Positions 104 through 38,517 of a stretch of 49,482 bases of DNA are shown piece after piece. A model generated the notes under the pieces. It ran no database searches and was not told the DNA's origin. It was given only the letters and a program-made list of their open reading frames with translations. Made by a program: the position numbers and the translations under genes. The stretch's first letter is position 1, and each line of letters begins with the position of its first letter. This stretch comes from Phycisphaerae bacterium (lineage in GTDB: Bacteria; Planctomycetota; Phycisphaerae; UBA1845; PWPN01), in assembly GCA_012729395.1 (NCBI GenBank), contig JAAYDF010000302.1, positions 1 to 49,482 on the forward strand, given 5' to 3'.

Positions 104-200
104 ACCATTCGTGTCAGGATGATTTTTGCGGGGTCGCGAGGGCGGTTGCCAAAAGCTGAGTTGCGGGCAGCTCCGCAAAAATCATCCTGACACCATTTTT
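104..200. repeat. Family A palindromic repeat, copy 1
   Basis: Inverted arms at 111-131 and 173-193 (core TGTCAGGATGATTTTTGCGG and its complement) enclose a core with a GGCGGTTGCCAAAAGCTGAG segment. The core is in the opposite orientation to copies 2-6. The outer left end is degenerate: ACCATTC stands where the other copies have AAAAATG. The rest of 1-596 holds no gene I can support, apart from the leader of the PEP-CTERM gene that starts at 597. Confidence 0.85.
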
Positions 201-596
201 CTTCCGTTGTCCGGACTGCTAGGCATACAGAGGGGATAAAGAGGGGTTTACCAGACCTGTCGAGAAACCGCGTCGATTGGCCTTGCGAGAGGGCTGCCCC
301 CTGTCCCTTAGGGTGCTGACGGTGCGGCAGCCGACTTGTGAATCCCAGCCGAGAGCGAGATACTGGCTACGGATCATGTCCTGCCGTTCGCGTGGAGGGG
401 GCAGGTGTGCCGGCGCTTGCGTCCTGTGCACACGCAAGCCCCCGGAAAGGAGCAACACAGTCCTGTCCCTATCGTTCGCTGCGCTGCGGGCATCGGTATG
501 CCTAGGCCCAGTCCAGCGTGTCGGCATGGGCGGGCTACAGACTGTCGCTGTGGCGCGGCAGTCGGGTCATGGGTGGATCTGGTAAGGAGACGGACA

Positions 597-1202
597 ATGC
601 GTTCCTATTGTGTTCTGGTGCTGGCACTGGTCGCGATTTGCACCGCCTGCCCTGTCGTGCAAGGTGGGCTAACCGCGTGGGCTGAATGGAACCTGAAGCA
701 AGGAGAAGACGGTCACGAGGCCGCTGACTGGGAACAGGTGTGGGGCCGCGGTACCGGAGCCCCTGGTGCCACATGGAATCCGAGCCCCAGTGAGCCGGAG
801 GTCACCGTCACCTATAATCTTGCTCTGGGGCATACGTACTTCTTTGTGGACATGCCGAACTGGATCGACGACGAACCCCGCAAGAACATGAAGATTCAGT
901 TCAAGATGGGCTCGATGGGCTTCATTCCCACCATCTCGGTTCGGGGCATCGACTCAACGGTGCCGGATTGCACGGAGAGGATCGACAAGGTTGTATTGGA
1001 CTATCAGAAGATGACGGCGACCTACAAAGCCAGGATCTTCCCCAACCCTGACTACGAGCGCATCGGCATCACAATCCCCGATCACCCCAGCCTTGGCATG
1101 CCGGTCAGCCGCATCAGGATAGAGACGGAGTCCCTGCCGGAGCCGGCATCGATCGCACTGCTCGGACTCGGCCTGCTATTCGTGCGCAGGGCTCGGCGAT
1201 AG
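597..1202 (+). CDS. PEP-CTERM sorting-domain protein
   Basis: A secreted protein of 201 residues. The N-terminus is a hydrophobic signal peptide (residues 1-23). The C-terminus (about 181-201) has PEP, then a hydrophobic stretch LLGLGLLF, then the basic tail RRARR. That tripartite end is the PEP-CTERM signal recognised by exosortase in Gram-negative bacteria and planctomycetes. The ATG at 597 is chosen because AAGGAGA at 584-590 is well spaced and the signal peptide starts there; a longer reading frame to 405 has no ribosome site. The central region is mostly beta-like and matches no family I recognise. The stop lies 10 bp before family A copy 2. No exosortase gene is in the window. Confidence 0.85.
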   Translation: MRSYCVLVLALVAICTACPVVQGGLTAWAEWNLKQGEDGHEAADWEQVWGRGTGAPGATWNPSPSEPEVTVTYNLALGHTYFFVDMPNWIDDEPRKNMKIQFKMGSMGFIPTISVRGIDSTVPDCTERIDKVVLDYQKMTATYKARIFPNPDYERIGITIPDHPSLGMPVSRIRIETESLPEPASIALLGLGLLFVRRARR

Positions 1203-1211
1203 GCCGCTAGG

Positions 1212-1297
1212 AAAATGGTGTCAGGATGATTTTCTGGGCGGGTTGCGGTCTGTGTGCCGCCTCTGCGGTAGTGCAAAAATCATCCTGACACCATTTT
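1212..1297. repeat. Family A palindromic repeat, copy 2
   Basis: Arms 1212-1233 and 1275-1297 (AAAATGGTGTCAGGATGATT and complement) are nearly perfect. The core is shorter and more diverged than in the other copies. It sits between two genes on the same strand, directly after a stop codon, where it could end transcription. Confidence 0.9.
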
Positions 1298-1331
1298 CGT
1301 TGTTGGGTTGCTGATCCTGTGCCTGCCTTGT

Positions 1332-2111
1332 ATGTTGCGGGCCATGACTCAGGCGGATGGGCAGGAACAAGGTTCTCGTTGGCGATGGCTGTTTCGTCAT
1401 CGGCCGGCGTTCAATGCCATGATTCCGCCCGACGCCCGGGTCGATCCCGATCGGTTTCCCGAGGAAGAGTTTCCCCTCTACTGCCCCAAGTGCGATTACC
1501 TGCTGCGCGGCCTGCCCGGCAACCGCTGCCCGGAGTGCGGCCAGGCATTCGACCGCGGCAGACTGCTCGTCGAGCAGTACGTGATCCAGCAGGGCAAGCC
1601 AACTTGGCCACCTGCGAAGCGATACGCCAAGAAGACTGCAGTGATCGGCCTCATCCTACTCCTCGCCAGCCTCCTTCTGGTCATCGGTGACATCTACTCC
1701 ATGTTCCACCACCTGAGAAGGTTATTACCTGTTTCCGTGGTCAAGATTGCGATGGGGTTTGCGGCTTTCGCGGGACTCGTCGTTCTGTCGGCTTCTTTGG
1801 TATATTCTTATTGGCCCGATCCTGCCAAGAAAAGCCGCCAGGTCTTCGACGCGATCGATCAGACCAGCGAATCCTATCGCCGGGCACAGAGATGGGGACA
1901 GAGGGTATGGCTCGTGATCTTTGTGCCGTTTGCCGCCTACATCTTGTATGACCTCTGCGCGGCGGGTTGCTACGCGCATGGCTACTACTCTCAGCACCCT
2001 GAAGCCATGCTGCCAGCAGTCGGGATTGGTCTCGGCGCGGGAGCCTTGATCGTGGGCATTCATGCCCTCGTAGCGCGGCTGTACCGCCGGCACATCCGGG
2101 ACAAACGCTGA
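1332..2111 (+). CDS. Zinc-ribbon membrane protein of unknown function
   Basis: A protein of about 259 residues. A CPKCDYLLRGLPGNRCPECG zinc ribbon (Cys at about 51, 54, 66 and 69) is followed by four likely membrane helices (about 103-125, 138-162, 193-218 and 227-247). This layout of a short zinc ribbon before membrane helices is common in planctomycete proteins, but the role is unknown. The start is uncertain: ATG at 1332 or 1344, or TTG at 1308, and none has a clear ribosome site. Family A repeats flank the gene closely on both sides (1212-1297 and 2133-2229). Confidence 0.7.
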   Translation: MLRAMTQADGQEQGSRWRWLFRHRPAFNAMIPPDARVDPDRFPEEEFPLYCPKCDYLLRGLPGNRCPECGQAFDRGRLLVEQYVIQQGKPTWPPAKRYAKKTAVIGLILLLASLLLVIGDIYSMFHHLRRLLPVSVVKIAMGFAAFAGLVVLSASLVYSYWPDPAKKSRQVFDAIDQTSESYRRAQRWGQRVWLVIFVPFAAYILYDLCAAGCYAHGYYSQHPEAMLPAVGIGLGAGALIVGIHALVARLYRRHIRDKR

Positions 2112-2132
2112 CCGCCGATGCCGGGTGAGCGG

Positions 2133-2229
2133 AAAAATGGTGTCAGGATGATTTTCTCCGAGTGGTCCGCAACTCAGCTTTTGGCAACCGCTCCTGCGGC
2201 CGCGCAAAAATCATCCTGACACCATTTTT
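2133..2229. repeat. Family A palindromic repeat, copy 3
   Basis: Arms at 2133-2155 and 2205-2229 are the same as in other copies; the core contains CCGCAACTCAGCTTTTGGCA, which is the reverse complement of the copy 1 core. It lies between two convergent genes (stops at 2111 on + and 2240 on -), which fits use as a two-way terminator. Confidence 0.92.
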
Positions 2230-2239
2230 CGGACTTCAG

Positions 2240-3178
2240 CTACGCGAGAAGCCCTTGTTCTTTCAAGAACAGGTCTGCTTCGGCACGCAGGGGGAAGGAA
2301 ACCTGCGTCCCGATTCTGGTGACCGAGAGGGCCGCGACCGCATTGGCGCGCAGAACGGCGTCGCGCATCGGCGCGCCTTCACTGAGAAAAACCGCGAGGC
2401 TGCCGATGAAGGCATCACCCGCACCGGTCGGGTCGACGGCTTTGATCCGGACTGCCGAGATGTGCTCCACCTTGTTCTTGTCTGCCAACAGTGCACCGCG
2501 CTCGCCGAGGGTGAGAAGGACAGTCTTCGGTCCGCGCTCAAGCAAAGCGCGGGCAGCGTCGGTGGCTTGTTCGAGCGTATTCACAGGCATACCCGTCAGC
2601 AGTTCGGTTTCCGTTTCGTTGGGTGCGCAGATGTCCGCCAGCCGTAGCAGTTCGTCTGGCAGGGGGGCGGCTGGGGCGGGGTTGAGGATGGTCCGTACGT
2701 TGCCGGACTTGGCGATGCGGAACGCTTCGAGCGTCGTCTCGATCGGGATTTCGAGCTGGCAGACCAGCAGCGAGGCCGAGAGGATCGCCTCACGGGCGGC
2801 TTGTGCATCAGCAGGTGACAACCCCATGTTTGCCCCAGGAACGATGACGATGAAGTTCTTGGCATGGTCATCCACGAAAATGGGGGCAACGCCCGAGGAG
2901 AGCACGTCATCGAAGAGAACATGGGAGGTGTCAATGCCCTGCGTGCGGTAGTTCTTGAGGGTTCCCTCGCCAAAGACATCGCGTCCCAGCTTGGTCACCA
3001 TTGTGACCAGCGCGCCCAGTTTGGCCGCCATCACCGCCTGGTTTGCCCCCTTACCGCCATAGCCCATGTGAAACGAGTTGCCCACCAGGGTCTCGCCCAA
3101 TCTGGGCAGGCGCGGTACCTGTGAAATGAGGTCAATGTTCGAGCTGCCGACGACGCAAATTCGGGATGCTTGGGTCAT
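2240..3178 (-). CDS. rbsK: Ribokinase (PfkB family)
   Basis: A cytoplasmic sugar kinase of 312 residues, close to the usual size (E. coli RbsK has 309), predicted to phosphorylate D-ribose with ATP to ribose 5-phosphate. The N-terminal PfkB signature GGKGANQA is at 41-48, and the C-terminal signature DPTGAGDAF at 249-257 places the catalytic base at Asp255. NPAPA (166-170) and NETE (187-190) are also typical of ribokinases. I chose the ATG at 3178 because AAGGA lies 7 nt upstream; an ATG at 3184 is too close to that site. No ribose transporter or repressor is adjacent. Other PfkB sugars cannot be excluded. Confidence 0.9.
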   Translation of the reverse strand: MTQASRICVVGSSNIDLISQVPRLPRLGETLVGNSFHMGYGGKGANQAVMAAKLGALVTMVTKLGRDVFGEGTLKNYRTQGIDTSHVLFDDVLSSGVAPIFVDDHAKNFIVIVPGANMGLSPADAQAAREAILSASLLVCQLEIPIETTLEAFRIAKSGNVRTILNPAPAAPLPDELLRLADICAPNETETELLTGMPVNTLEQATDAARALLERGPKTVLLTLGERGALLADKNKVEHISAVRIKAVDPTGAGDAFIGSLAVFLSEGAPMRDAVLRANAVAALSVTRIGTQVSFPLRAEADLFLKEQGLLA

Positions 3179-3394
3179 CGTCATTTCCTTGTTCGCATGG
3201 GCTTGCGCTCTCGCCCTGCCTTTTGCGGTTCTATGTTCTGCTTTGGCACGGAGCATGCGTACCTTGTTCGACATTGTGTCTGCGAAGGCACTCAGGAGCA
3301 ATAGCAGGAATGTCAGCTTCGGTCGGAAGACGCGGTCAATCAATCGGTTCGATGATGCAGGGGACAGCGTGGGGTGGGCGTCTGTGGCGAGACT

Positions 3395-3496
3395 AAAAAA
3401 TGGTGTCAGGATGATTTTTAGGGAGCAGGTTGCAGCTCAGTCCTCGGCACGGCAACCGCCCTCGCGGCCCTGAGAAAATCATCCTGACACCATTTT
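3395..3496. repeat. Family A palindromic repeat, copy 4
   Basis: Outer arms match (AAAAAATGGTGTCAGGATGA and complement), but the inner stem is less well paired than in copies 3, 5 and 6. It lies in the 465-bp gap between the divergent genes rbsK and the second PEP-CTERM gene; the rest of that gap shows only the promoter at 3503-3526. Confidence 0.88.
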
Positions 3497-3502
3497 CTTC
3501 GG

Positions 3503-3526
3503 AGTACCGGTCGGTTCGGCTATAAT
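3503..3526 (+). promoter_or_regulatory. Probable promoter of the second PEP-CTERM gene
   Basis: A perfect TATAAT (3521-3526) stands in GC-rich DNA about 118 nt upstream of the start at 3644. The -35 region is weak (TTCGGA before a 17-nt spacer) and abuts the right end of family A copy 4. Inferred from pattern only. Confidence 0.45.
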
Positions 3527-3643
3527 GGGAATCGTGCCGGACATAGTGGCGTGTCGCGGGTGAGATAGAACGACTGACGGCCGGTCCGGACTTCAGACGG
3601 CGAAGGCGAGTTGCCCCCGCTACAATTCAGGAGGGAATCAACC

Positions 3644-4390
3644 ATGTCCAAGAGCGAAGCCATTGTGGGCATGACACTTGTTCTGTGGGCGTGCGGAAGC
3701 GTAACCGCAGTCTGTCTGCAAGACGACTTCGAAAGCTACCAGACACAAGCGGAGTTCGAGGCGGCTTGGCCTCGGGTGTATACGGGCAGCTCGCTTGCGC
3801 TGATTCAGGGCTTCGGCCGCAGTGGCCAGCAATCGGTACGCAGCGAGGTCTTTTCCACGGGCACCCACCGCAACTATCGCAACCTCAACAGTTTCACCGC
3901 ATGCCAGGGGACGGACGCCAACCCGCTCAAGTTCGAGTTCTGGATCTACGTCGACAGCAGCTCGCCGAGTATGCGTGAGTACACATCGCTGTACGCCTAC
4001 AGCGGCGACGGCTATGGCCAGGGGAGCCTGACCGGCATGATCTCGATGGGACTTTACAGCGATTACTACTTCGATGCCCGCACTTTGTACGGCGGGTCGA
4101 GCGGGTCGAGCGGCTGGATCGCCCTGAGCATTCCGCGGACCCTTGGCTGGCATCGCATGACCGCGCTGATCAAGAGCGCACGCGTCGAGTATTACGTGGA
4201 CGGTAGCTTGGGCGGGCAGGATACGTTTCAATCGGTCGCTTTTGACGCGGTGGTACTGGGCTCCGGCCTGACCTCGCTTGGCGGGCAGTCGACTTTCTAT
4301 GACGACATTGTGGTGGCCGTCATCCCTGAGCCAGCCACGATTCTGCTGTTAAGCCTTGGACTTGTGCGCCGAAAAAGAGTGTCAGGATGA
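3644..4390 (+). CDS. PEP-CTERM protein, stop codon inside a repeat
   Basis: A secreted protein of 248 residues. After a signal peptide (1-25), the mature part begins DDFESYQTQAEFEAAW, an opening often seen in PEP-CTERM proteins with a lectin/LamG-like beta-sandwich; the central domain looks like one, but that is an inference. The C-terminus is PEPATILLLSLGLVRRKR plus VSG, a PEP-CTERM signal. AGGAGGGA at 3629-3636 supports the ATG at 3644. The last five residues (KRVSG) and the TGA are encoded by family A copy 5, which starts at 4372, so the present gene end was made or altered by the repeat. The protein probably sits at the cell surface after exosortase processing. Confidence 0.85.
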   Translation: MSKSEAIVGMTLVLWACGSVTAVCLQDDFESYQTQAEFEAAWPRVYTGSSLALIQGFGRSGQQSVRSEVFSTGTHRNYRNLNSFTACQGTDANPLKFEFWIYVDSSSPSMREYTSLYAYSGDGYGQGSLTGMISMGLYSDYYFDARTLYGGSSGSSGWIALSIPRTLGWHRMTALIKSARVEYYVDGSLGGQDTFQSVAFDAVVLGSGLTSLGGQSTFYDDIVVAVIPEPATILLLSLGLVRRKRVSG

Positions 4391-4468
4391 TTTTTGTGGA
4401 GCAGGTTGCGGCTCAGTTTTTGGCAACCGCCCCTGCGGCCGCGCAAAAATCATCCTGACACTATTTTT
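4372..4468. repeat. Family A palindromic repeat, copy 5 (overlaps a gene end)
   Basis: It spans the gap between two convergent genes and overlaps the 3' end of the PEP-CTERM gene. Both arms read AGTGTCAGG where other copies read GGTGTCAGG, so a G-C pair of the stem has become A-T. Flanking bases extend the stem (CGCCGAAAAA at left, TTTTTCGGCG at right). Confidence 0.92.
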
Positions 4469-4477
4469 CGGCGGGTA

Positions 4478-5650
4478 TCAGCGCGCGGGTCGCTGTTGGG
4501 CCAGCAGTGAGAAGATCACCTCCGCGTAGAGTCGATGGCCGAAGTCGTTCGGGTGATTCACGCCGTTGCCGGTCAGGTCAAGGTGCGGCTTGCGGGTCAG
4601 CATGGCCTCCCAGACGGAGGATAAATCCGCGAGAGCGATGCCCGGACCGACCATTTTTCGCATCGCATCCCGGTATTGGAGGACTCGGTCCGGATTGGCC
4701 AACCGCCAATCCTTGTTGGGCAGCATGGAGGCGACCAGGATGAACTCCGCGTTCGGCCGGGCCGCGCGCACGGCGGCCATCTGTCCCTTGAGATTGGCGA
4801 TGAACGTCTCGGCGGAGCAGGTCTCGCCTTCGCCGGTGCTGTCGTTCATGCCCCAAGCGAGAATGACCAGGTCCGGTTTCTCGGCCGCGACCGGGCCGAT
4901 ATGCTCTAGTCCCCAGGCGGAGGTCCGGCCGCCTTCAGAGTGGTTGGTAAACGAAATCTCCGACCGGTAGGCACGCCCGAGGTTCGCCGCCAGCAGTTCC
5001 CCGTATGCGGGCTGGAACGGCGGGGTATTCGCCCATTTCGACGCATTGCAGCCGGTGGAAATGCTGTCCCCGAACAAGACGAGCTTCAGCGGGGCGCCCT
5101 GACGCAGGATAGCGATCGTCCTGGGCAACTCTCGCTCGGCGAAGCGTGGTGGCGGCACGTCCCACGACGCGGCGTCCAGCTTGTAGGTGTAGGTGACCAA
5201 GGTCTGCATGTCGGCGTATTCGTGGCCGGCCGCGAACAGGATATCGCCTTTCCCGTCCCGTCGGACCAACCCGAAGGGCTGGCTGCCCAAAGGTGGCGTG
5301 AGTTCCTCCGTCGTTCGTGCGGGGATTGCCGACCCGGCCGGCAGGGTGAGCTGCCGCGACCCCGTCACAAGGAGGTAATCCTGCCCCTCTTTGTAGATGG
5401 TCTTACCGTCCGAGCTGGTGACCGATCGGATTGCCGTTGGCTCGAACAGCAGCGACGCGGTGGCCTGTCCGCCGTCCGCGGGCTTGATGAACAGCACGCT
5501 TTCGCCGGTCATCGTTGCGGTGTCCCAGAACGGCCGGCTTACGTCGGTGAACGCCGGGGCCGTAGTCGGGCCGGCCCCCATGGCCCCGGAGACGTGCATA
5601 ACGACGCATGCCGCCGACAGAACGCTCATTGTGGCAAACCGCATTCTCAT
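4478..5650 (-). CDS. Secreted SGNH/GDSL-family hydrolase
   Basis: A protein of 390 residues with a signal peptide (1-26), an N-terminal beta-rich domain (about 30-180) and a C-terminal SGNH hydrolase domain (about 186-385). The catalytic blocks are visible: Ser196 in FGDSIS, the glycine block in NHSEGG (236-241), Asn269 in GMND, and Asp369/His372 in HPNDFGH. Such enzymes cleave ester bonds, in planctomycetes often acetyl or other acyl groups on polysaccharides; the substrate is unknown. The ATG at 5650 starts the signal peptide; a longer frame would run back into the family A repeat. It is convergent with the PEP-CTERM gene and separated from it by copy 5. Confidence 0.88.
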   Translation of the reverse strand: MRMRFATMSVLSAACVVMHVSGAMGAGPTTAPAFTDVSRPFWDTATMTGESVLFIKPADGGQATASLLFEPTAIRSVTSSDGKTIYKEGQDYLLVTGSRQLTLPAGSAIPARTTEELTPPLGSQPFGLVRRDGKGDILFAAGHEYADMQTLVTYTYKLDAASWDVPPPRFAERELPRTIAILRQGAPLKLVLFGDSISTGCNASKWANTPPFQPAYGELLAANLGRAYRSEISFTNHSEGGRTSAWGLEHIGPVAAEKPDLVILAWGMNDSTGEGETCSAETFIANLKGQMAAVRAARPNAEFILVASMLPNKDWRLANPDRVLQYRDAMRKMVGPGIALADLSSVWEAMLTRKPHLDLTGNGVNHPNDFGHRLYAEVIFSLLAQQRPAR

Positions 5651-5672
5651 GTAGGTACGCCTCACAGGGCGG

Positions 5673-5768
5673 AAAATGGTGTCAGGATGATTTTTGCGGG
5701 GCGGGCCGCAATTCGGCTTTCGGCAACCGCCCCTGCGGCCCCGCAAAAATCATCCTGACACCATTTTT
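5673..5768. repeat. Family A palindromic repeat, copy 6 (best preserved)
   Basis: Arms 5673-5701 and 5739-5767 form a perfect 29-bp inverted repeat around a 37-bp core. Flanking GCGG and CCGC lengthen the stem. It lies between the start of the SGNH gene and the stop of the DUF1080 gene (5789), 20 bp from the latter. Confidence 0.95.
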
Positions 5769-5788
5769 CCGCTAGGTGGTCTCATCGC

Positions 5789-24619: not shown

Positions 24620-24742
24620 TCAGGTTGAAGGTGAGCACAGCGCGGGCGGCAGGTCACCCCTTTTCAGGCAGGCACTGAGGACGGTTGAATCAGGGCGCAT
24701 CCGGCCGACGGGGTGGCTTGCGATATGGAGGAGCGTGTTCGA

Positions 24743-25621
24743 GTGAAACAGGAGCGGATACTCAAAATTGGCATTCCCAAGGGCAGTCTGGCGGACGCGA
24801 CGGTGGAGTTGTTTGGCCGGGCGGGCTTCAACTTGCAGGTGTCCTCGCGGGGTTACTATCCGTCGATCGACGATTCGGAACTCAGCTGCATCATGTTTCG
24901 CGCGCAGGAGATGAGCCGTTACGTGGAAGACGGCGTGGTGGACGTTGGGCTGACCGGGTACGACTGGATTCGGGAGAACTCCAGCGACGTGGTCGAGGTG
25001 TGCGAGCTGACGTACTCGAAGGCGACCTCCCGGCCGGCCCGTTGGGTGCTGGCTGTTCCGAACGAGTCTACGGTACAGGATGTGCGTGACCTGGAGGGGG
25101 GTCTCATCGCCACGGAGCTGGTGAACACGACACGGCGGTACTTCGAGAGCAAGGGCGTCAAGGTGCGCGTTGAGTTCAGTTGGGGGGCGACGGAGGTCAA
25201 AGCTCGGCTGGTGGACGCGATTGTCGAGCTCACCGAGACGGGCTCGTCGCTTCGGGCGAACAACTTACGGATTCTGGACGAGATTCTGGCGTCGACGACG
25301 CGGCTGATCGCCAACAAGCAGGCGTACGCGGACGTGTGGAAGCGGGAGAAGATCGACTCGCTGGCCTTGCTGCTGCGTAGCGCGATTGAGGCCAAGGCCA
25401 AGGTCGGGTTGAAGCTGAACGTGCCCAACGACAACCTCGATAAGGTGCTGGCGATTTTGCCGGCCGAGCGTTCGCCGACCGTGTCCGCCTTGGCGGATCG
25501 CAGCTTCAGCGCGGTGGAAGTCATTCTCGAGGCGGCGGTGGAGCGGGTGTTGATCCCACAGCTTCAGAAGGCCGGTGCGTCCGGCATCATCGTCTACCCC
25601 TTGAACAAAGTGATCCCGTAG
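24743..25621 (+). CDS. hisG: ATP phosphoribosyltransferase, long form
   Basis: The first enzyme of histidine synthesis, which joins PRPP and ATP. It has about 292 residues, so it is the long form (HisG-L) that works without HisZ: catalytic domains (about 1-215) are followed by an ACT-like regulatory domain (about 218-292, ending GASGIIVYPLNKVIP) that binds histidine. The N-terminus ILKIGIPKGSLADATVELF is typical. GTG at 24743 is chosen because GGAGGAG lies 9 nt upstream; an ATG at 24725 or a GTG at 24713 would add six or ten residues. No other his gene is in the window. Confidence 0.92.
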   Translation: MKQERILKIGIPKGSLADATVELFGRAGFNLQVSSRGYYPSIDDSELSCIMFRAQEMSRYVEDGVVDVGLTGYDWIRENSSDVVEVCELTYSKATSRPARWVLAVPNESTVQDVRDLEGGLIATELVNTTRRYFESKGVKVRVEFSWGATEVKARLVDAIVELTETGSSLRANNLRILDEILASTTRLIANKQAYADVWKREKIDSLALLLRSAIEAKAKVGLKLNVPNDNLDKVLAILPAERSPTVSALADRSFSAVEVILEAAVERVLIPQLQKAGASGIIVYPLNKVIP

Positions 25622-25659: not shown

Positions 25660-28600
25660 ATGCGACACGGCGAGGGTCAACTGAGTTCCGGATGCCCCGA
25701 GGGAAGCTGCACCCATCCGAGCGGCGCTCATTTGAGCCGCGCTGACCGAAGTTGCGCCTATCAGAGCCGCGCCCGTAAGGAAGCGGTTCTTGCTTGTCGT
25801 GGAGACCGCTTCTTGACGGTCGCGGCTCCGCTGGTTCCATTTCCGCTGGTTGCGGGGTTGATGGCCCTGGCCGCATTGACCTTGACGGGTTGCGTGGCTC
25901 CGGGGCCGACGGCGAGTGCGCCGGAAGACCAGGTTCTTTTCGGCCCGTTGCCGGTGCCCCCGGATTTCGATGGTGAGCGGGCGGCGCTCACGCTGGCCCA
26001 GATCCCGGATGCCCCTGTCTTGCCCGAGGGGACCAGTCCGCCGGTGACGGTCGAGTTGCCTCGGCAGGCGGAGCGACGACTCGATGCGGCCCGGCGGTTG
26101 TTTGCCGAGCAGCGCTACACCGAGACGATCAACGAGCTGACTGCCGCGCTGCGTTATAACGCGAACATCTACGCTGCTCACCGTTTGATGGCCCTGGCAT
26201 GCCAGCTTTCGGGCAACGAGAAGAATGCTCGGTTGCATGCCAATCGGGCACTGGAGTTGAACCCGGCAGACACGGCAAGCCTTTATGTTCTGGCTCGGCT
26301 GTCGGACAAGAGTGACAAGCCGGCCGAGGCCTTGCGGCTCTATCGAACGGCTCTGCTGTGCGATTCGACGGAAGACGCGGAAGGCTACCGCGTGCTGGTT
26401 CACTATCACCTGGGTCTACTACTGGAACGGCGGCACTACTACGCGGCGGCTGCGGATCAGTTCGAGTCTTTCCTGACTGGCGCGGCCGCGTTTGGCGATC
26501 GGGCCGGGCTGAATCCAGAGCTTGCCACCTTGGCGCGAGTGCAACAGGGGCCGGTGTTGCTCAAGTTGGCGCGGGCGCAGGGTTTGTTAGGGCGATATCC
26601 GGCGGCATCACAGACGCTGACGCGAGCGGTGGAGTTGGAGCCGGGGGATTGGGCGCTTCGAGGCGAGTGGATTCGCATGCTGGCACGTGCGAGGAGGCTT
26701 TCGGATGCGTGCGTAGCGGCCTCGCGTTATGTCGCGGATAGCCGGGGTCGGGCGGAGGCCCTTGATCTTCTGTTGGCGGTTTACCGTTATGCGGGCCGGC
26801 CTGAAGAGGCGGTGACGGCTATTCATGCGGTTCTGACAGAGCAGCCCGACAATCTGGCACTCCACTTGTTCTATGTGGATGCGTTGTTGGCTGCCAACCG
26901 GCAGGACGAAGCGGCGAGCGCGTTGGCGACGCTGGCCGAGGACCATCCGGATTTGCCGGATGTCCGCTGGAAGTTGGCGGCGCTGCATCGATCTCGGCAG
27001 CAATGGCGGGATTGGCTGCTCACGTTGGCAGCCGAGCTGGTTTCGAAATCTGCCGACGAGTCGCGGCTGGAGCAGGAGTTGGGGCAGTTGCCGGAACCCG
27101 TGGCCGGGGCCATGGTGGATGAGCGGTTGGGGCGTCCGGTTCAAGAGCCGTTGCTAGCGGGTTTGCCGACGGAGAGCCCGGCTGTGGAGTCGGCGGTGGA
27201 CTATCTGGTTGCCCGGCTTGGGGATCGGTTAGGCCGATCGGTTGAGTCGCTGCCTCTGTTGGAGCGGGCGGCGGATCGCTCGCCGGAGTTTGTACCGGTT
27301 GCTGTGGCGCTGGCTCGTGGTTTCGTGCGGGAGTGTCGCTGGGCGGATGGTCTGGCCTTGTTGGATCGGGTGTCGGCCGGCGAGAAACAGGCTCACTCAT
27401 CTTTGGAGGCCCTCAAGGCTCGCTGCCATGACGGGTTGGATGAAATTGAAGAGGCTGAGGAAGGTTACCGGAAGGCTCTTCAGCTCGACCATGCGGACAC
27501 CGAAGTGATGTGGTGGCTGGTGCGTCTGTACGAGCGCAGGGGCGAGGCACAGAAGGCTTTCGAGCAGTATGAAGCGATCCTGGCGGCGAACCCGGACGAT
27601 CAGCGGGCTCGCGAGGAGCTCATTCGGGCCTTGTGGACCAACCGGGAGCAGCGATCACGGCTTGTTCGGGAGTTGAACGAGATTCAGCGGATCGATTCTG
27701 AATCACCGCCGGCCCGGCGTTGCGTGGCGATGGTCCAGTTCCTTCAGCCAGCGGCGGCCAACCTCGAAGCCTACACCCAGGCGATGCGCGAGCTGGTGGC
27801 AAGCCATCCCGAGGATACGCGATCTCGCGAGGAGTTGATTGGCGCGCTCGTTGCGACTCGGGAGTACGAGGCTGCCCACACGGAAGCGGTGGAGTTGCTG
27901 AAGCAACATCCGTGCTCGGATCGGGCCAATGAGCTGATGTCGTTGGTGTTGATTCGTGAGCTGGCGTTCGACCAGGCCCAGCAGCGGCTGGAGCAGATGT
28001 TGACTTGGTATCCGAATCGCGAGTCATGGATGCAGGAGCTGGCTCAACTGCGGGCGTTGGACCAGCGGTACGATGAGGCGGTGGACCTGTGGCGTCGGTT
28101 GTTGGGTCGGTGGTCGAAGGGGGATCCCGCTTCGCCGGACGACCGGACGCCGCATTACCAGATGAAGCTGATGCAGGCGTACCGGCAGGCCGGCCGGTTC
28201 GAGGACGCTCGCAAGACGGCCGAGGAATGGCTTGCCGCGGATACGCCCCGGGATGAGGTGATGGTGAGGCGGCTGCGGTGGTTTGCTCTGGCGGCGGATG
28301 CCGGAGCGGGCGAGCACGACCGCTACATCGAGCGGGTGCGGTCGTGGTTGGCCGAGGATCCGACGAACCCGGAGCTGCGAGCCTGGGAACTGGGCGTAGC
28401 GGCCTCGTACCCCGCAGGCAGTCTAGGCCTTCCGCCGGGCAAGGCGGGCTTGATTGGGGCGAAGCGGTTTGAGGAAGCGATCTTGCGGGCGCTCGAGTGG
28501 CTGGCGGCTCAGCCCGAGGACGACGGCGGGGTGATGTGGCTGATCACCGCGTTGCAGGCGGCCAAGCGGCATGACGAGGCGATCGAGCTTGCCGCCAACC

Positions 28601-29520
28601 AGGTGGCTGCCGCCGATGAGCTGCAAGATCGCATCGAGCATCTCAATATGCTTCGGGAGCTGTACATGCGGGCGGGCCGTTACGAGCAGGCTCTCGATAC
28701 CGCGCGGGAGGTGGTGAACGAAGCCCGCAAGTTGCTCAACGATATCGACGCGCCGCGCAAGCCGTTTGTCGAGGTTTTTGTTTTCGAGTTGCGGCGGCTG
28801 TTCGGCCAAGTACTGGTGCAGGCCCGGCGGTACGATGAGGCGATCAACCACCTGAGAGAGATGGTGGACGAGGTCGATGCGATTCGTCGCGAGTCGCAGA
28901 CAATCGCACAGGGGCTCGAGGATCTGCGGCAAAGGGAGATTGCCCTGCGACGTGAGCAAGAGGCGGCCAAGCGGCAGACGCTCCTGCTGCGAGCTTTGTG
29001 TTACGTGCATCAACAGCAGGGACGCGACGATTTGGCGTTGGAGCGTGCCCGGGAGGCTTATCAGTTGCTGCCCCGAGACGTGGGTCTGAACAACGACGTC
29101 GGGTATACGCTCGCGGATGCGGGCGAAGACCTGGACGAGGCGGAGCGTATGATCCGTTACGCTTTGTCCACCGAGCCGGCGCAAGCGGCCTACTTGGATA
29201 GTTATGGCTGGGTGTTGTACAAGAAGGGCCGGTTCGCCGAGGCCCGGATCTGGCTGGTGCGGGCGTGCGCTATGGAAGAAGGCGAGGATGCGGTTATTTT
29301 CGACCACCTGGGTGACGCCTGCTGGCGGTTGGGCGAGAAGGACGAGGCCGTGCGGCACTGGCGCCGTGCGCAGGAAACCCACGAGCGCAAGGTGGCCGAG
29401 GGCGAATCGGCGACGGACGAGAAGTTGATCGCGAGGATACAGTCGAAGCTGGCCGCGGTGGAGCGAGATGAGAAGCCCGAGGTGGCCTCCATCCCGGCGG
29501 ACACGCAGCCAGCCCCGTAA
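25660..29520 (+). CDS. Large TPR lipoprotein with repeat-derived N-terminus
   Basis: A protein of up to 1,286 residues made almost wholly of TPR-like helical pairs (from about residue 145 to the end), for example AEALRLYRTALLCD and EEAEEGYRKALQLDHAD. It resembles PrsT-type TPR lipoproteins of PEP-CTERM systems only in layout, which is an inference. The lipobox LTLTGC is preceded by a hydrophobic stretch. The ATG at 25660 has GGGGAAG upstream, but the first 58 residues are unusual and come partly from a family C palindrome (25762-25833). ATG at 25861, just before MALAALTLTGC, is a good alternative start. It is probably an outer-membrane-tethered scaffold. Confidence 0.82.
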   Translation: MRHGEGQLSSGCPEGSCTHPSGAHLSRADRSCAYQSRARKEAVLACRGDRFLTVAAPLVPFPLVAGLMALAALTLTGCVAPGPTASAPEDQVLFGPLPVPPDFDGERAALTLAQIPDAPVLPEGTSPPVTVELPRQAERRLDAARRLFAEQRYTETINELTAALRYNANIYAAHRLMALACQLSGNEKNARLHANRALELNPADTASLYVLARLSDKSDKPAEALRLYRTALLCDSTEDAEGYRVLVHYHLGLLLERRHYYAAAADQFESFLTGAAAFGDRAGLNPELATLARVQQGPVLLKLARAQGLLGRYPAASQTLTRAVELEPGDWALRGEWIRMLARARRLSDACVAASRYVADSRGRAEALDLLLAVYRYAGRPEEAVTAIHAVLTEQPDNLALHLFYVDALLAANRQDEAASALATLAEDHPDLPDVRWKLAALHRSRQQWRDWLLTLAAELVSKSADESRLEQELGQLPEPVAGAMVDERLGRPVQEPLLAGLPTESPAVESAVDYLVARLGDRLGRSVESLPLLERAADRSPEFVPVAVALARGFVRECRWADGLALLDRVSAGEKQAHSSLEALKARCHDGLDEIEEAEEGYRKALQLDHADTEVMWWLVRLYERRGEAQKAFEQYEAILAANPDDQRAREELIRALWTNREQRSRLVRELNEIQRIDSESPPARRCVAMVQFLQPAAANLEAYTQAMRELVASHPEDTRSREELIGALVATREYEAAHTEAVELLKQHPCSDRANELMSLVLIRELAFDQAQQRLEQMLTWYPNRESWMQELAQLRALDQRYDEAVDLWRRLLGRWSKGDPASPDDRTPHYQMKLMQAYRQAGRFEDARKTAEEWLAADTPRDEVMVRRLRWFALAADAGAGEHDRYIERVRSWLAEDPTNPELRAWELGVAASYPAGSLGLPPGKAGLIGAKRFEEAILRALEWLAAQPEDDGGVMWLITALQAAKRHDEAIELAANQVAAADELQDRIEHLNMLRELYMRAGRYEQALDTAREVVNEARKLLNDIDAPRKPFVEVFVFELRRLFGQVLVQARRYDEAINHLREMVDEVDAIRRESQTIAQGLEDLRQREIALRREQEAAKRQTLLLRALCYVHQQQGRDDLALERAREAYQLLPRDVGLNNDVGYTLADAGEDLDEAERMIRYALSTEPAQAAYLDSYGWVLYKKGRFAEARIWLVRACAMEEGEDAVIFDHLGDACWRLGEKDEAVRHWRRAQETHERKVAEGESATDEKLIARIQSKLAAVERDEKPEVASIPADTQPAP
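25762..25833. repeat. Family C palindrome, copy 1 (inside a gene 5' end)
   Basis: Arms of about 25 bp (CAGAGCCGCGCCCGTAAGGA at left; GACGGTCGCGGCTCCGCTGG at right) match copy 2 at 38445-38517 in reverse orientation, including the loop-side AAGCAAGAACCGCTT. It is in frame with the TPR reading frame. Confidence 0.85.
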
Positions 29521-32995: not shown

Positions 32996-35900
32996 TCACG
33001 GACAGATCAACGCGCTGTTCAGGCTGTTGCGCACGGCGACCAGGTCGAAGATGTTGATCGCCCCATCCACGTTGACATCAGCCCGACACGTGCTCGCGGT
33101 GACCGACTGGTTCAGTTGGTTTCTCACCTGGACGAGATCGAAGATGTTCACGGTTTGATCGCCGTTGACATCACCAGCCAGGCAAGCGATGCGCACCTCG
33201 GCGGCGTCCTGCATATCCGCCACATCGGAAGCCGTGAGCGTCAGGCAGGTTGCGTTCGGTACACCGTGCAACTCGACAGTCGCCAGGGGCCCGTCCACGG
33301 TCACCGCGTCCACGGTGCCCGCGGAGGCCTGCACCTGGACTCCCTCGGCCGGTCCGCTGAAGGTCAGCACAATCGTCCTCGGACCGCCCGTGCGGCATTC
33401 GCTGCCCGCGGTCCCTCCAAGGGACAGCGGCGTATCGAAGTTGCCCACAGTCCCGTGTGTTCGGCGAGACACCGCGCCCGCCAGGAAGACCGGGCTGATG
33501 GGCAGTATCTGCACTTCGGTGAGAATCGTTCCCACGGACGGATTGACCAGTATCAACGAGGCATGATCCCATCCCAGTTCCGGGTCCACATACCAGTCGA
33601 AGCTTCCCGATGCCATGGGTGCGCTGCCGAGGCGGATCACCGAGTTGGGATCATAATGCAGCGAAGACTGAGCATGTGAGAGATATATGTCCACGTCGCC
33701 CGTCGGATTGGTACTGGTCCAGTTGATGGTGGTTGTCGCGCCGGCCTGGACCGCCTGGCCGGCTTGCGGGAAGGTCTGCGTCATGGTCGGCGATGTCGTG
33801 GGTGACGGGTTGGTGATCTGGAATGTGCCGTCCGTTTCGTCCCGCACGTTGCCGTCCACCATCCACATGACCTCGATGCGATAGTTCGAGCCGGCGGGCA
33901 GCGATGAACAGATCGGCCAATCGAAGCTGCCGGCCTCCATCGGAGCCAGACCGATGATCAGAGGGTTGTGCACGGTCGGGCTACCCGCGGACTCCAAGGC
34001 TTCGCTCTGCAGGGTGACCATCACCCAGCCGTGAGGGTGGGTGCTGGTCCAGGTGACGGTCTGCGTCGTGCCCGCCTGCCAGATGCTCGCACTGTCAGGG
34101 CTTGTGACCGTGATGGTCGGCGGAGCGGTCGAGTCCGAGATCGTGAAGGGCGCGTTGCTGTCATCCTCGAATGTGCCCAGACCGCCTCCGTCGTACAAGG
34201 CGATGCGCACTCGGTAGTCGGCTCGATCACCGATCCAGGGGGGAATGGACCATGCGAAACTGCCTGTCCCGATCTGGGTCGTGCCGATCGTCCCCAGGGG
34301 AACATCGCCTGCGTAGAGCTCGATATTCGCGGATTCCTGGCCGGAGACATGGGTACTGGTCCAGGAGATGGTTTGGGTAGTACCGGCCTGGTAGCTCTCG
34401 CCGCCGTTGGGGCTGACCACAGTGATTGTGGGAGGAGGTGTCGAGCCGGTGATGGTGAACGACCCGTTGCTGTAGTCTTCGAACATTTCGAAGCCGCTGC
34501 TCATGGACAGGCGGACGCGGTAGTCCGTGCGGTCACCAATCCAGGGGGGAATCTGCCAGGCGACGGAGCCGGCTTCAGCGAAGGTGCCGCCAATCTCCCC
34601 GATGTACTCTGTGCTCGCGTACAGAGACGCACTGACCCATTCGTCGCCGGTCGTATTGGCGCTCGTCCAGGTGATGCTGTGAGTTGTGCCGGCCTGCCAG
34701 GTCTCGCCGCCATTGGGGCTGGTCAAGGTGATCGCCGGAGGAGGCGTGGAGCCGGTGATGCTGAAGAAGCCGTCACCGCAGTCCTCGACCTGGCCAACGC
34801 TCTCCAGCCAGATGCTCGTGCACACGCGGTACTGGGTATGATCGCCGATCCAGGCGGGAATTGCCCAAACCAGACTGCCGGATCCTACGGGGCCTGAGCC
34901 GATCTGCATGCGGTAAGTCTCGCCCTGGTAAAGCGAGACGGTGATGGAACTATCGCCAGCGATACCGTTACTACTCCAGGTTATGGTCTGGGTGGAGCCT
35001 GCCTGCCAGGTTTCACCGCCGTTGGGGCTGGTGATGGTTAAGGTCGGGTTTCCGGCCGAGCCGGTGATCTCGAAGGGCCCGTCCCCGAAGTCTTCAAACA
35101 CGTCGCTGCTTTGATAGAAGACGATGCGTAACCGATAGTTGTCGCCGTTGGCTGTCCAGGCTGGAATGGCCCAATCGTAGCCGCCGCTGCCTACGGTGGT
35201 CCCACCGAGTGACCCGCAGTACTGGTCACCTTCATAGAGTTCGATGGTCAGCCATTCGCTTCCTGTGGTGTGGGTGCTGGTCCAGGTGATGGCCTGTGTG
35301 GTGCCTGCCTGCCAGACCTCGCCCCCATTGGGGCTGGTGACGGTCAACGTGGGGGGATCCATCGAGCCGGTGAGCGAGAAAGACGCGTCGCTGCAGTCGG
35401 TCACCGCCCCGAAGTCGCCCACCCAAGTCTCGAGGCAGACGCGGTAGTCCGTCCCGTCGCCGATCCAGGAGGGGATTGCCCAGTCCATGCCGCCGTCGCC
35501 GATCACCGCCCCGCCGATTTGGCGGACGTATGTGTCGCCCGAGTAGAGGTAGACACTGACCCACTCATACCCCTGGACTTGGGTGCTGGTCCAGGTGATG
35601 GGTTGGGTGGTGCCCGCCAGCCAGGTCTCGCCGCCGTTGGGGTTGGTGAGCGAGAGGGTGGGTGGCCCCGCCGAGCCGGTGATCGCGAACGGAGCGTCGC
35701 TGGAGTCCTGTACAGGGCCGTAGGCATCCACCCAGACTTCGATGCGGATCTGGTAGTCCGTCCTGTCGCCGATCCAGGGCGAAATCTGCCAATCCAGGCT
35801 GCCGTTGCTCAGGGGAACGGACCCGAGGTCGGCGCGATGGTTGCCCCCTTCGTAGAGGGATATGGTCGCCCACTCGGTGCCGGTGGTGTTGGTGCTGGTC

Positions 35901-36886
35901 CAGGTGATGGTGTGTGTAGTGCCGGCCTGCCAGCTCTCGCCGCCGTTGGGGCTGGTGATGGTGAGGACAGGGGGCTGCAGCGAACCGGTGACGGCAAAGG
36001 AAGCGTCGCCGCAATCCTGGACTGCGCCGAAGCCACTGACATAAGCCTCTACGCAGACCCGGTAGTTTGTGCCGTCGCCAAACCAAGGCGCGATGGACCA
36101 GTCCAAGCTGCCGGCTCCGATGGTCGTTCCACCGATCTGCCCGCGATACGTTTCTCCGTCGTAGAGATTGATGGTTAGCCACTCATCCTCGTCGATTCCA
36201 CTGCTAAGCCAGGTGATGGTGTGGCTCATCCCGGCCTGCCAGGCTTCACCGCCGTTGGGGCTGGTCAGCGTGACGGCCGGCGGCGCGAGCGAACCGGTGA
36301 TGGTGAACGGGGCGTCTCCGCAGTCCTGTACCCAGCCGACCGTGTCCACCCACATCTCGACGCAGATCCGGTACGTGGTGCCGTCGCCGATCCATGCGGA
36401 GATGGGCCAGTTCAGACTGCCCGCTCCGACGGTCGTTTCTCCAAGCAACTCGCGATAGTCGTTTCCCTCGTAGAGGAGAACCCGAACCTGCTCTTCGCCG
36501 GTGGTATCCACGGCGCTCCAAGTGATTGTCTGCGTGGTGCCGGCCGACCAGCTCTCTCCGCCGTTGGGACTGGTCACGGTGATTTGGGGGTTGGGTTCTG
36601 CTCCGCCGCACACGTCCGGCAAGGAGACGGCCAGGTTAGCGCACTCGGCGTCCCATTCGGTCACGCAGCAGTAGGAGTCCAAGGCGCAGACCGCTTCGCA
36701 GCACGCCTGGTTCTCGCAGTAAGGCGAGCCGTTGGCTTCCAGGCAATCGCCGGTGCCTGGGGTTCCGCAGCCGTCTGTGGATTGAGAGACAACCGGTAGC
36801 GACGAGCCCGGCTGGCCGAACGTCGAGCCGGCGAACACAAGCACGATGACCACATGCCACCACATCCAGGGGCTCCTTCCGGACAT
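32996..36886 (-). CDS. Secreted multidomain protein with ten Kre9/KNH-like repeats and a dockerin
   Basis: A protein of 1,296 residues. A signal peptide (1-24) is followed by a Cys-rich segment (about 40-94), ten tandem beta-sandwich domains of about 100 residues (101-1132) and an Ala/Val/Thr-rich beta domain (about 1133-1234). Two EF-hand-like dockerin motifs follow (1238-1296; GDVNGDQTVNIFDLV and ADVNVDGAINIFDLV). Each repeat opens SPNGGE-W-AGTT-TITW and closes IGDGT-YR-CVE-W, the Kre9/KNH (Ser-Thr-rich) family pattern. The first eight are very alike; the last two have diverged. GGAGGA precedes the ATG at 36886. It is probably a surface adhesin or scaffold; the binding target is unknown. 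Confidence 0.88.
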   Translation of the reverse strand: MSGRSPWMWWHVVIVLVFAGSTFGQPGSSLPVVSQSTDGCGTPGTGDCLEANGSPYCENQACCEAVCALDSYCCVTEWDAECANLAVSLPDVCGGAEPNPQITVTSPNGGESWSAGTTQTITWSAVDTTGEEQVRVLLYEGNDYRELLGETTVGAGSLNWPISAWIGDGTTYRICVEMWVDTVGWVQDCGDAPFTITGSLAPPAVTLTSPNGGEAWQAGMSHTITWLSSGIDEDEWLTINLYDGETYRGQIGGTTIGAGSLDWSIAPWFGDGTNYRVCVEAYVSGFGAVQDCGDASFAVTGSLQPPVLTITSPNGGESWQAGTTHTITWTSTNTTGTEWATISLYEGGNHRADLGSVPLSNGSLDWQISPWIGDRTDYQIRIEVWVDAYGPVQDSSDAPFAITGSAGPPTLSLTNPNGGETWLAGTTQPITWTSTQVQGYEWVSVYLYSGDTYVRQIGGAVIGDGGMDWAIPSWIGDGTDYRVCLETWVGDFGAVTDCSDASFSLTGSMDPPTLTVTSPNGGEVWQAGTTQAITWTSTHTTGSEWLTIELYEGDQYCGSLGGTTVGSGGYDWAIPAWTANGDNYRLRIVFYQSSDVFEDFGDGPFEITGSAGNPTLTITSPNGGETWQAGSTQTITWSSNGIAGDSSITVSLYQGETYRMQIGSGPVGSGSLVWAIPAWIGDHTQYRVCTSIWLESVGQVEDCGDGFFSITGSTPPPAITLTSPNGGETWQAGTTHSITWTSANTTGDEWVSASLYASTEYIGEIGGTFAEAGSVAWQIPPWIGDRTDYRVRLSMSSGFEMFEDYSNGSFTITGSTPPPTITVVSPNGGESYQAGTTQTISWTSTHVSGQESANIELYAGDVPLGTIGTTQIGTGSFAWSIPPWIGDRADYRVRIALYDGGGLGTFEDDSNAPFTISDSTAPPTITVTSPDSASIWQAGTTQTVTWTSTHPHGWVMVTLQSEALESAGSPTVHNPLIIGLAPMEAGSFDWPICSSLPAGSNYRIEVMWMVDGNVRDETDGTFQITNPSPTTSPTMTQTFPQAGQAVQAGATTTINWTSTNPTGDVDIYLSHAQSSLHYDPNSVIRLGSAPMASGSFDWYVDPELGWDHASLILVNPSVGTILTEVQILPISPVFLAGAVSRRTHGTVGNFDTPLSLGGTAGSECRTGGPRTIVLTFSGPAEGVQVQASAGTVDAVTVDGPLATVELHGVPNATCLTLTASDVADMQDAAEVRIACLAGDVNGDQTVNIFDLVQVRNQLNQSVTASTCRADVNVDGAINIFDLVAVRNSLNSALICP
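33491..36586 (-). repeat. Tandem coding repeat, ten units of about 310 bp
   Basis: The units encode the Kre9/KNH-like domains of the large secreted protein. Conservation is visible at the DNA level (for example CCGCCGTTGGGGCTGGT recurs in most of the units), so the array probably grew by unequal exchange. Confidence 0.85.
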
Positions 36887-36985
36887 ATTGCTGTCCTCCC
36901 ATCCGCACAGACAAAGGATGAATGAACTGAACCGCGACCATGGTGGGACTCGAGGGCGCGTCGGCCCTCGATTCCTCCCCGAGTG

Positions 36986-36991
36986 ATTATA
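36986..36991 (-). promoter_or_regulatory. TATAAT box of the large surface-protein gene
   Basis: A perfect -10 on the minus strand, about 100 nt before the ATG at 36886. The -35 region (CTGATT at 17 nt) is weak. The 184-bp gap to the divergent GlmU-like gene must hold both promoters. Confidence 0.45.
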
Positions 36992-37070
36992 CCGGATTTG
37001 CCGCTGGAAATCAGCCCCGCCGACGCCCGATATCCAGCGACCGCTCCAGCCGGGTGGCCCAATCTCCGAT

Positions 37071-38354
37071 ATGGACCCTATGACTGCAATCGTGGTCTTC
37101 GAAGACGACGGCTGGCGCAACCTGCTGCCGCTGACTTACTGGCGGACGACCTGCGAACTGCGGACCGGTTATGGGTCGTTGCTGGATGCGATTTTCGCTT
37201 GTACTGAGGCAACCGGGGTCCACCTGTATTGCCGCCCCATGCTTGCCGCGGTCACCGCTGAGCGATTCGCCCACTCTGTCAACAGATGTCCGGACCGCGA
37301 CGCGGCCCTGTTGTTGAACGGGCGTTTGCTGATGACCGCACCGCTCGCGGCTGGGCCCCGTCCGGCGGTGCAGTGGCATGACGGAACGCCCATCGTGATT
37401 CATGCGGACCGAGCCCTGATGGCCCGGCTTTCGCCCGAAGTCCTGCTCGATTCGGACCGGGCATGCACCGTGCTTGGCGATGTGCCGGAGTTCCCGTTCA
37501 TCGCCTCGCCGCGGCTGATGAACTACCCTTGGGATCTGGTGCACGCCAATGTCGGTATGCTGCATTGGGGCTGGGAACGCACGGGCCGATCAGCGAGCAA
37601 GGAAGGCCGACTCTGCCCCGGAGTCCACCTGCTCGAAGAAAAAGCCATTCATATCGGGGCCGGCTCGGTCATCAAGCCCGGCGTGGTACTCGACGCGGAA
37701 AACGGACCGATCTACATCGGCGACGGGGTCACCGTCGCGCCCAACGTCAGCATCGAAGGGCCGTGTTATATCGGCGACGGCTCGATCATTCAGGCCGGGG
37801 CCGCCCTGCGCGACGCCATGAGCATCGGACGGCGATGCAAAGTCGGAGGTGAATTGGAGGCATCCATCGTCCACGGGTATTCCAACAAGCAGCACGACGG
37901 ATTCCTCGGCCACGCCTATGTCGCCGAGTGGGTCAACCTGGCCGCCGACACGGTCAACAGCGATCTCAAGAACACCTACGGCACCATCCGCGTACCGATC
38001 AACGGCGTCGAGGTCGAGTCCGGCCAGATGTTCGTCGGGCTCACCATCGGCGATCACAGCAAGACCGGCATCGGTCAGATGTTCCCCACCGGAGCGGTGA
38101 TGGGCTTCGGCTCGAATGTCGCGACCTGTGAGTTCGCCCCGAAGTTTGTGCCCTCCTTTTCCTGGCTCACGAATCACCGCAGCCTGCCGTACCACGTCGA
38201 TCGTTGTCTCGATGTGGCCCGTCGGGTCATGGCTCGTCGCCAGGTGATCATGACACGTGCGGAAGAAGCCCTTTTCCGCTCCTTGCCCGAGTTGGCTCAA
38301 GAGATCGAAGTATCTGCGGAATCCTCCGCCCGCGTCGTCTCCTCGGCACGCTAG
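37071..38354 (+). CDS. Alternative GlmU-like nucleotidyltransferase/acyltransferase
   Basis: A protein of 427 residues (424 from ATG 37080). The N-terminal part (about 1-180) looks like a diverged nucleotidyltransferase (IVVFEDDGWRNLLPLTYWRTTCELRTGYGSLLD); the rest (about 185-390) is a left-handed beta-helix with hexapeptide turns such as IGAGSVIKPGVVL and IGDGVTVAPNVSIEG. This layout matches the alternative bacterial GlmU family (as in Bacteroidetes), which would make UDP-N-acetylglucosamine for peptidoglycan and LPS; the assignment is by pattern. No ribosome site is clear. Divergent from the Kre9/KNH gene. Confidence 0.82.
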   Translation: MDPMTAIVVFEDDGWRNLLPLTYWRTTCELRTGYGSLLDAIFACTEATGVHLYCRPMLAAVTAERFAHSVNRCPDRDAALLLNGRLLMTAPLAAGPRPAVQWHDGTPIVIHADRALMARLSPEVLLDSDRACTVLGDVPEFPFIASPRLMNYPWDLVHANVGMLHWGWERTGRSASKEGRLCPGVHLLEEKAIHIGAGSVIKPGVVLDAENGPIYIGDGVTVAPNVSIEGPCYIGDGSIIQAGAALRDAMSIGRRCKVGGELEASIVHGYSNKQHDGFLGHAYVAEWVNLAADTVNSDLKNTYGTIRVPINGVEVESGQMFVGLTIGDHSKTGIGQMFPTGAVMGFGSNVATCEFAPKFVPSFSWLTNHRSLPYHVDRCLDVARRVMARRQVIMTRAEEALFRSLPELAQEIEVSAESSARVVSSAR

Positions 38355-38444: not shown

Positions 38445-38517
38445 AGCAGAGCCGCGACCGTCAGGGAGCGGTAGCTCGAAAAAGCAAGAACCGCTTCCTG
38501 ACGTGCGCGGCTCTGCT
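38445..38517. repeat. Family C palindrome, copy 2
   Basis: Arms 38445-38472 and 38490-38517 (AGCAGAGCCGCG and complement at the ends; about 25 of 28 positions pair) enclose a 17-nt loop. It matches the 25762-25833 copy in reverse orientation. It fills the middle of the 313-bp gap between the GlmU-like and TMTC-like genes. Confidence 0.88.

Follow-up and report, generated by a model that had tools for sequence, protein, structure and literature searches.

A palindromic element with class 3 TnpA_Y1-linked arms that probably inserted ahead of a TPR lipoprotein gene and may now begin its export leader

In the genome of a Phycisphaerae bacterium, the longest open reading frame of a TPR lipoprotein gene begins upstream of a palindrome and runs straight through it, which raises the question of what this palindrome is and how much of it is translated. 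The gene lies within a stretch of 49,482 nucleotides, hereafter referred to as the window, and the features discussed below are listed in Table 1. The initial annotation of the window had described a palindrome at 25762-25833 with a match in reverse orientation at 38445-38517 and had assigned it to residues 35-58 of the predicted protein. Both statements were borne out: the palindrome was recovered again as an inverted repeat (I4; 25762-25832 against 38445-38515, 71 nt, 83%), and translation of the frame 25660-29520 places it in frame at residues 35-58. We consider it likely that the palindrome is a non-autonomous element, whose arms are linked to class 3 TnpA_Y1, and that it became inserted in the spacer separating hisG from the TPR gene, where its right arm probably came to start the leader, likely at TTG 25813. 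On this reading the element is a mobile passenger of an ordinary kind at an interesting place, and no conserved protein domain.

Table 1. Features of the hisG-TPR locus and of the second element copy in the window
Feature	Position	Strand	Remark
hisG	24713..25621	+	directly upstream of the TPR gene; synteny kept in relatives
Longest ORF, TPR lipoprotein gene	25660..29520	+	1286 aa
Second, smaller inverted repeat GAGCGGCGCTCA..TGAGCCGCGCTGA	25719..25746		spotted by eye
Palindrome	25762..25833	+	two inverted REP-like arms, 17-nt loop
Left arm AGAGCCGCGCCCGTAAGGAAGCGGT	25763..25787	+	CnGA foot CAGA at 25762-25765
Right arm	25805..25829	-	reverse complement bears foot CGGA (CnGA); in gene frame ..RFLTVAAP..
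In-frame TTG in right arm	25813..25815	+	26 residues ahead of lipobox Cys; GGAG at 25801-25804, 8 nt upstream
In-frame ATG proposed by the initial annotation	25861..25863	+	10 residues ahead of lipobox Cys
Lipobox Cys codon (LTGC)	25891..25893	+	Cys is residue 78
Second window copy of the element	38445..38517		intergenic; 93 nt past one gene, 153 nt ahead of the next

The element consists of two inverted 25-nt arms with the arm consensus AGAGCCGCGACCGTNAGGGAGCGGT and belongs to a dispersed family. A 121-nt query found 62 places in its own genome (E<=0.01), and the arm alone gave 197 matches there at up to three mismatches (91 forward and 106 reverse), compared with none on either strand for the same pattern read backwards. 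Among 101 genomes, namely the own genome and 100 relatives, the arm is present in 75, with up to 607 arms in one genome, and the reversed control gave no match in any of them. Exact arm pairs were found in 105 stretches of named genomes, mostly of Phycisphaerae and other Planctomycetota, and also in Solibacter, in Bryobacterales MAGs and in MAGs labelled Proteobacteria. A CnGA foot is found in 174 of 193 arms, including both arms of the palindrome at 25762-25833, and the predicted fold of a single arm, '....(((((..((....))..)))))', consists of the unpaired foot CAGA and an imperfect hairpin with an internal mismatch. The smaller inverted repeat upstream of the palindrome is possibly a decayed older arm.

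The census of the own genome covered 81 stretches, corresponding to 1.48 Mb of 5.74 Mb, which were picked around listed matches plus some Y1 genes, and the 116 arm clusters found in them are thus a biased sample. Head-to-head '+-' pairs with a loop of mostly 15-18 nt make up 66 of these clusters; according to gene calls made with our own codon-score caller, 100 clusters lie between genes, eight at gene edges and eight within genes. The 127 arm clusters of the named genomes yielded 12 called gene overlaps, several of them in doubtful genes. Within its own genome, the element is read in frame in the genes for HypF, Nnr and a Ddl-like ligase; in HypF, 68 residues replace the 15 found between the aligned blocks of 3vth. 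Furthermore, in-frame copies lie near the N-termini of the genes at L098, L107 and L092, and the alginate-lyase-like gene at L100, which has a hydrophobic leader, starts with an ATG in the right arm. Judged from their sequences, the genes with in-frame copies look intact. A frame bias of N-terminal compared with internal in-frame copies, judged by eye, was too small to claim. In another open reading frame (L125, 12676-12796), an arm-bearing unit is present twice as direct tandem copies, both in frame.

A partner of the arms was sought among Y1 transposases. While a strict search for the class 3 motif gave no match, a looser look then recovered a set of class 3 proteins (HuH, Y....Q), and these matched in 24 of 26 genomes, many of which had been chosen for holding the exact hairpin. 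In a tree of 35 class 3 proteins of at least 140 residues, from which search matches below 40 bits had been dropped, one clade of 16 members (support 95/95) has 12 of the 13 arm-flanked genes; L308, with an arm at four mismatches, falls outside this clade. Shorter proteins, which stand outside the tree, include two with arms (L313 and L324) and four without (L299, L323, L326 and L332), and the short second match of L331 corresponds to the gene of L320. For 12 of the 16 clade members an arm was found no more than 300 nt from the gene, compared with 1 of 35 other Y1 loci (p 1.3e-7 by Fisher's test), and all 12 arm-flanked clade members belong to other genomes. At L301, L302, L305 and L320, a + arm precedes the gene by 14-72 nt and a - arm follows it after 28-124 nt; given this order of + arm, gene and - arm in several units, the 70-nt palindrome looks like a form of the same unit without the gene. 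No arm was found near the class 3 loci assembled from the own genome, whose member of the clade (L319/L048, contig C199) has an array of another, CGAGC type on its flanks. Since the assembly is in 370 contigs, an arm-flanked TnpA copy may be missing from it. The classic class 2 RAYT was rejected as a partner: ten of the eleven Y1_Tnp loci of the own genome have no arm at up to five mismatches in flanks of up to 1.5 kb, the eleventh has one weak five-mismatch match, and an arm somewhere in the flanks was seen at three of 30 Y1_Tnp loci from eight other genomes.

Several repeat arrays of other sequence were encountered beside class 3 genes. The TnpA_Y1 gene of the own genome mentioned above (L048 900-2360; G000:C199) is bordered on each side by arrayed copies of a sibling repeat (GCGCCAACGAGCCCGGAGCGCGAGCGACGGGAT), and other class 3 genes, at L180, L182 and L167, are flanked by CnGAGCC-type hairpins of their own with a different sequence. 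The latter suggests that gene and repeat co-vary.

Repeats carrying a CnGA foot have been reported beside genes for class 3 TnpA_Y1 in Planctomycetes and Acidobacteria, and Solibacter usitatus has about 600 of them (Quentin et al. 2018, PMC6006769). As far as the accessible part of that paper describes them, these REP-like sequences resemble the arms in their CnGA foot, imperfect hairpin, high copy number, range across Planctomycetes and Acidobacteria and position beside class 3 genes in other genomes, with cleavage or transfer by the cognate TnpA being putative here. The arms differ in that they mostly form head-to-head pairs with a 15-18 nt loop and in that the own genome has no arm-flanked TnpA. 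GTAG and CGTC REPs and their dimers likewise consist of hairpin units, form head-head dimers and are mostly intergenic but sometimes genic or N-terminal, according to the available sections of Di Nocera et al. (2013, PMC3733652). However, the arm bears neither a GT[AG]G tag, its feet being CAGA and CGGA, nor a CGTC tag, and it is linked to class 3 rather than to class 2 RAYTs, since only one of the 35 non-class-3 Y1 loci has an arm within 300 nt. The same sections report that Rickettsia palindromic elements (RPE) insert in frame into genes, in some cases at the N-termini of expressed proteins. Palindromes read in frame or at N-termini thus have precedents among GTAG/CGTC REPs and RPEs; the window element differs from RPEs in sequence and host, and RPE-4 and RPE-6 are counted there among the CGTC REPs, for which that study found no dedicated transposase. 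The linkage of arms to one class 3 clade and the paired arm form were not found described in the parts of PMC6006769 and PMC3733652 that were accessible, and nothing closer was found in the partly accessible literature on RAYT/REP in Planctomycetes and on RPEs with signal peptides. The tie between an abundant planctomycete and acidobacterial palindrome and a specific clade of HuH nucleases makes its mobilisation testable.

How did the element come to lie at this gene? The order hisG-TPR is kept in 12 of 29 orthologue loci (11 same-family relatives and L159), and the other 17 have no hisG upstream. The initial annotation had proposed a comparison with orthologues lacking the element, and this turned out to be informative: no arm is present in the hisG-TPR junction of any of the 12 syntenic relatives, and none of the relatives' orthologues has a start 77 residues before the Cys. 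The single four-mismatch arm match at L135 lies far downstream of the junction. The best same-family match to the TPR protein shows 45% identity, and the relatives offer no empty site at base resolution. With the family, the arm-TnpA linkage in other genomes, the absence of the element from this site in relatives and the leader lengths given below established, the following course can be proposed. The palindrome would be a non-autonomous member of a mobile family whose arms flank a class 3 TnpA_Y1 (HuH) clade, and it would have inserted between hisG and the TPR gene in this lineage. Each arm alone could form a hairpin with an unpaired CnGA foot, which such a nuclease may recognise on single-stranded DNA, thereby mobilising the element in trans, and the long stem would be a by-product of the pairing of inverted arms. 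After insertion, the right arm (..LTVAAP..) would be read as the start of the leader, most probably from TTG 25813.

The choice of this codon depends on the leader. The N-termini of 11 same-family orthologues show a lipobox-like Cys, preceded by leaders of 20-31 residues that contain K/R in the n-region in 10 of 11 cases (starts chosen by us; L136 was omitted because its start is ambiguous). In the window, the corresponding lengths are 77 residues from ATG 25660, 53 from TTG 25732, 26 from TTG 25813, 11 from TTG 25858 and 10 from ATG 25861. TTG 25813 thus fits the orthologue leader length best, but, unlike 10 of the 11 orthologues, it has no K/R before the hydrophobic core, and it is located inside the stable hairpin. 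Predicted RNA accessibility does not discriminate between the possible start codons. The initial annotation had offered two cases, either a palindrome in the 5' UTR of a gene that starts at ATG 25861 or uptake of the whole repeat into the protein, neither of which fits well, and TTG 25813 as a third case suits the leader length better. Translation therefore most likely starts upstream of ATG 25861, with TTG 25813 favoured over both of these starts as far as sequence comparison can tell. Provided that the gene product has remained a lipoprotein, translation probably takes in at least the right arm, which would then supply the first part of the export signal; the palindrome had been located correctly but described as lying just before the signal peptide, whereas from TTG 25813 or any start upstream of it the right arm codes for the beginning of the leader.

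A possible but rather less probable explanation is that the whole palindrome is translated from an old start at ATG 25660, the element having entered the n-region of the leader in frame, so that the leader would now have 77 residues and a charged, palindrome-derived n-region SRARKEAVLACRGDR. This start lies 38 nt past the hisG stop, near where several orthologues start, the frame is open throughout, and the n-region would gain the K/R that TTG 25813 is without. In-frame uptake is plausible because the own genome holds in-frame copies in conserved enzymes (HypF, Nnr and Ddl), and the N-terminal ones at L098 and L107 are of the same kind. However, an open frame through the spacer is no evidence of coding, since all 79 codons stay open in 15% of 2000 dinucleotide shuffles, the codon score is negative (non-coding) over 25660-25839 and positive for the gene proper from 25840 on, and an n-region of 60 residues with four Cys is unlike that of any orthologue seen. 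That the element is purely 5' UTR, with translation from ATG 25861, is unlikely. It agrees with the codon score, by which our gene caller prefers this ATG as the best start, and with the absence of the element and of a 77-residue leader from the orthologues, so that the initial annotation was right in spirit on this point; moreover, most N-terminal REPs are argued to reflect erroneous start calls in the accessible part of Di Nocera et al. (2013, PMC3733652). A leader of 10 residues without K/R, however, stands against 20-31 residues in the 11 orthologues, and lipoprotein export would probably be lost.

A role as a functional RNA, kept here by selection as an attenuator, terminator or mRNA stabiliser, is improbable for the palindrome: the predicted RNA fold of 25755-25840 is very stable (-45.6 kcal/mol, z -4.6, equalled in none of 200 shuffles) and divergent spacers contain fewer copies than their share of sequence (12 of 90 intergenic copies with genes on both sides, versus 25% of intergenic bases), but the junction lacks the element in each of the 12 syntenic relatives and stem pairing within elements is no better than with shuffled arms (1594 of 1775 cells versus a mean of 1588 +/- 5.5, with 723 of 5000 shuffles as high), so that no covariation between the stem sides was found. 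Because the stem sides match no better within than between elements, the conserved unit is the arm and not the long stem.

Insertion of the element followed by a start in its right arm, the reading preferred here, would make the locus a concrete case in which a mobile hairpin probably rewrote the start of a lipoprotein. It is tempting to speculate further that repeated insertion near start codons builds new export leaders and that copies beside genes for exported proteins are kept as start codon plus leader, since the right arm, in the frame R-F-L-T-V-A-A-L/P, encodes a hydrophobic stretch and offers many start-like codons; this generalisation is doubtful at present, and its candidates are the copies at the window gene, L100, L107, L098 and L264. 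In either direction, start calls beside such copies are unreliable in annotations.

The window contains further repeats. The minus-strand open reading frame 32996-37120 (1374 aa) comprises about ten repeats of ~309 nt (33698-36582), and a repeat close to these, at 33017-33173, may be dockerin-like. Palindromes of another family (GTGTCAGGATGATTTT and its inverse) occupy intergenic sites at 105-5771, within the first 6 kb; genome-wide, this family was matched 67 times forward and 69 times in reverse, and its copies stand on either side of a RAYT-like Y1 gene (L043, 1187+ and 1914-).
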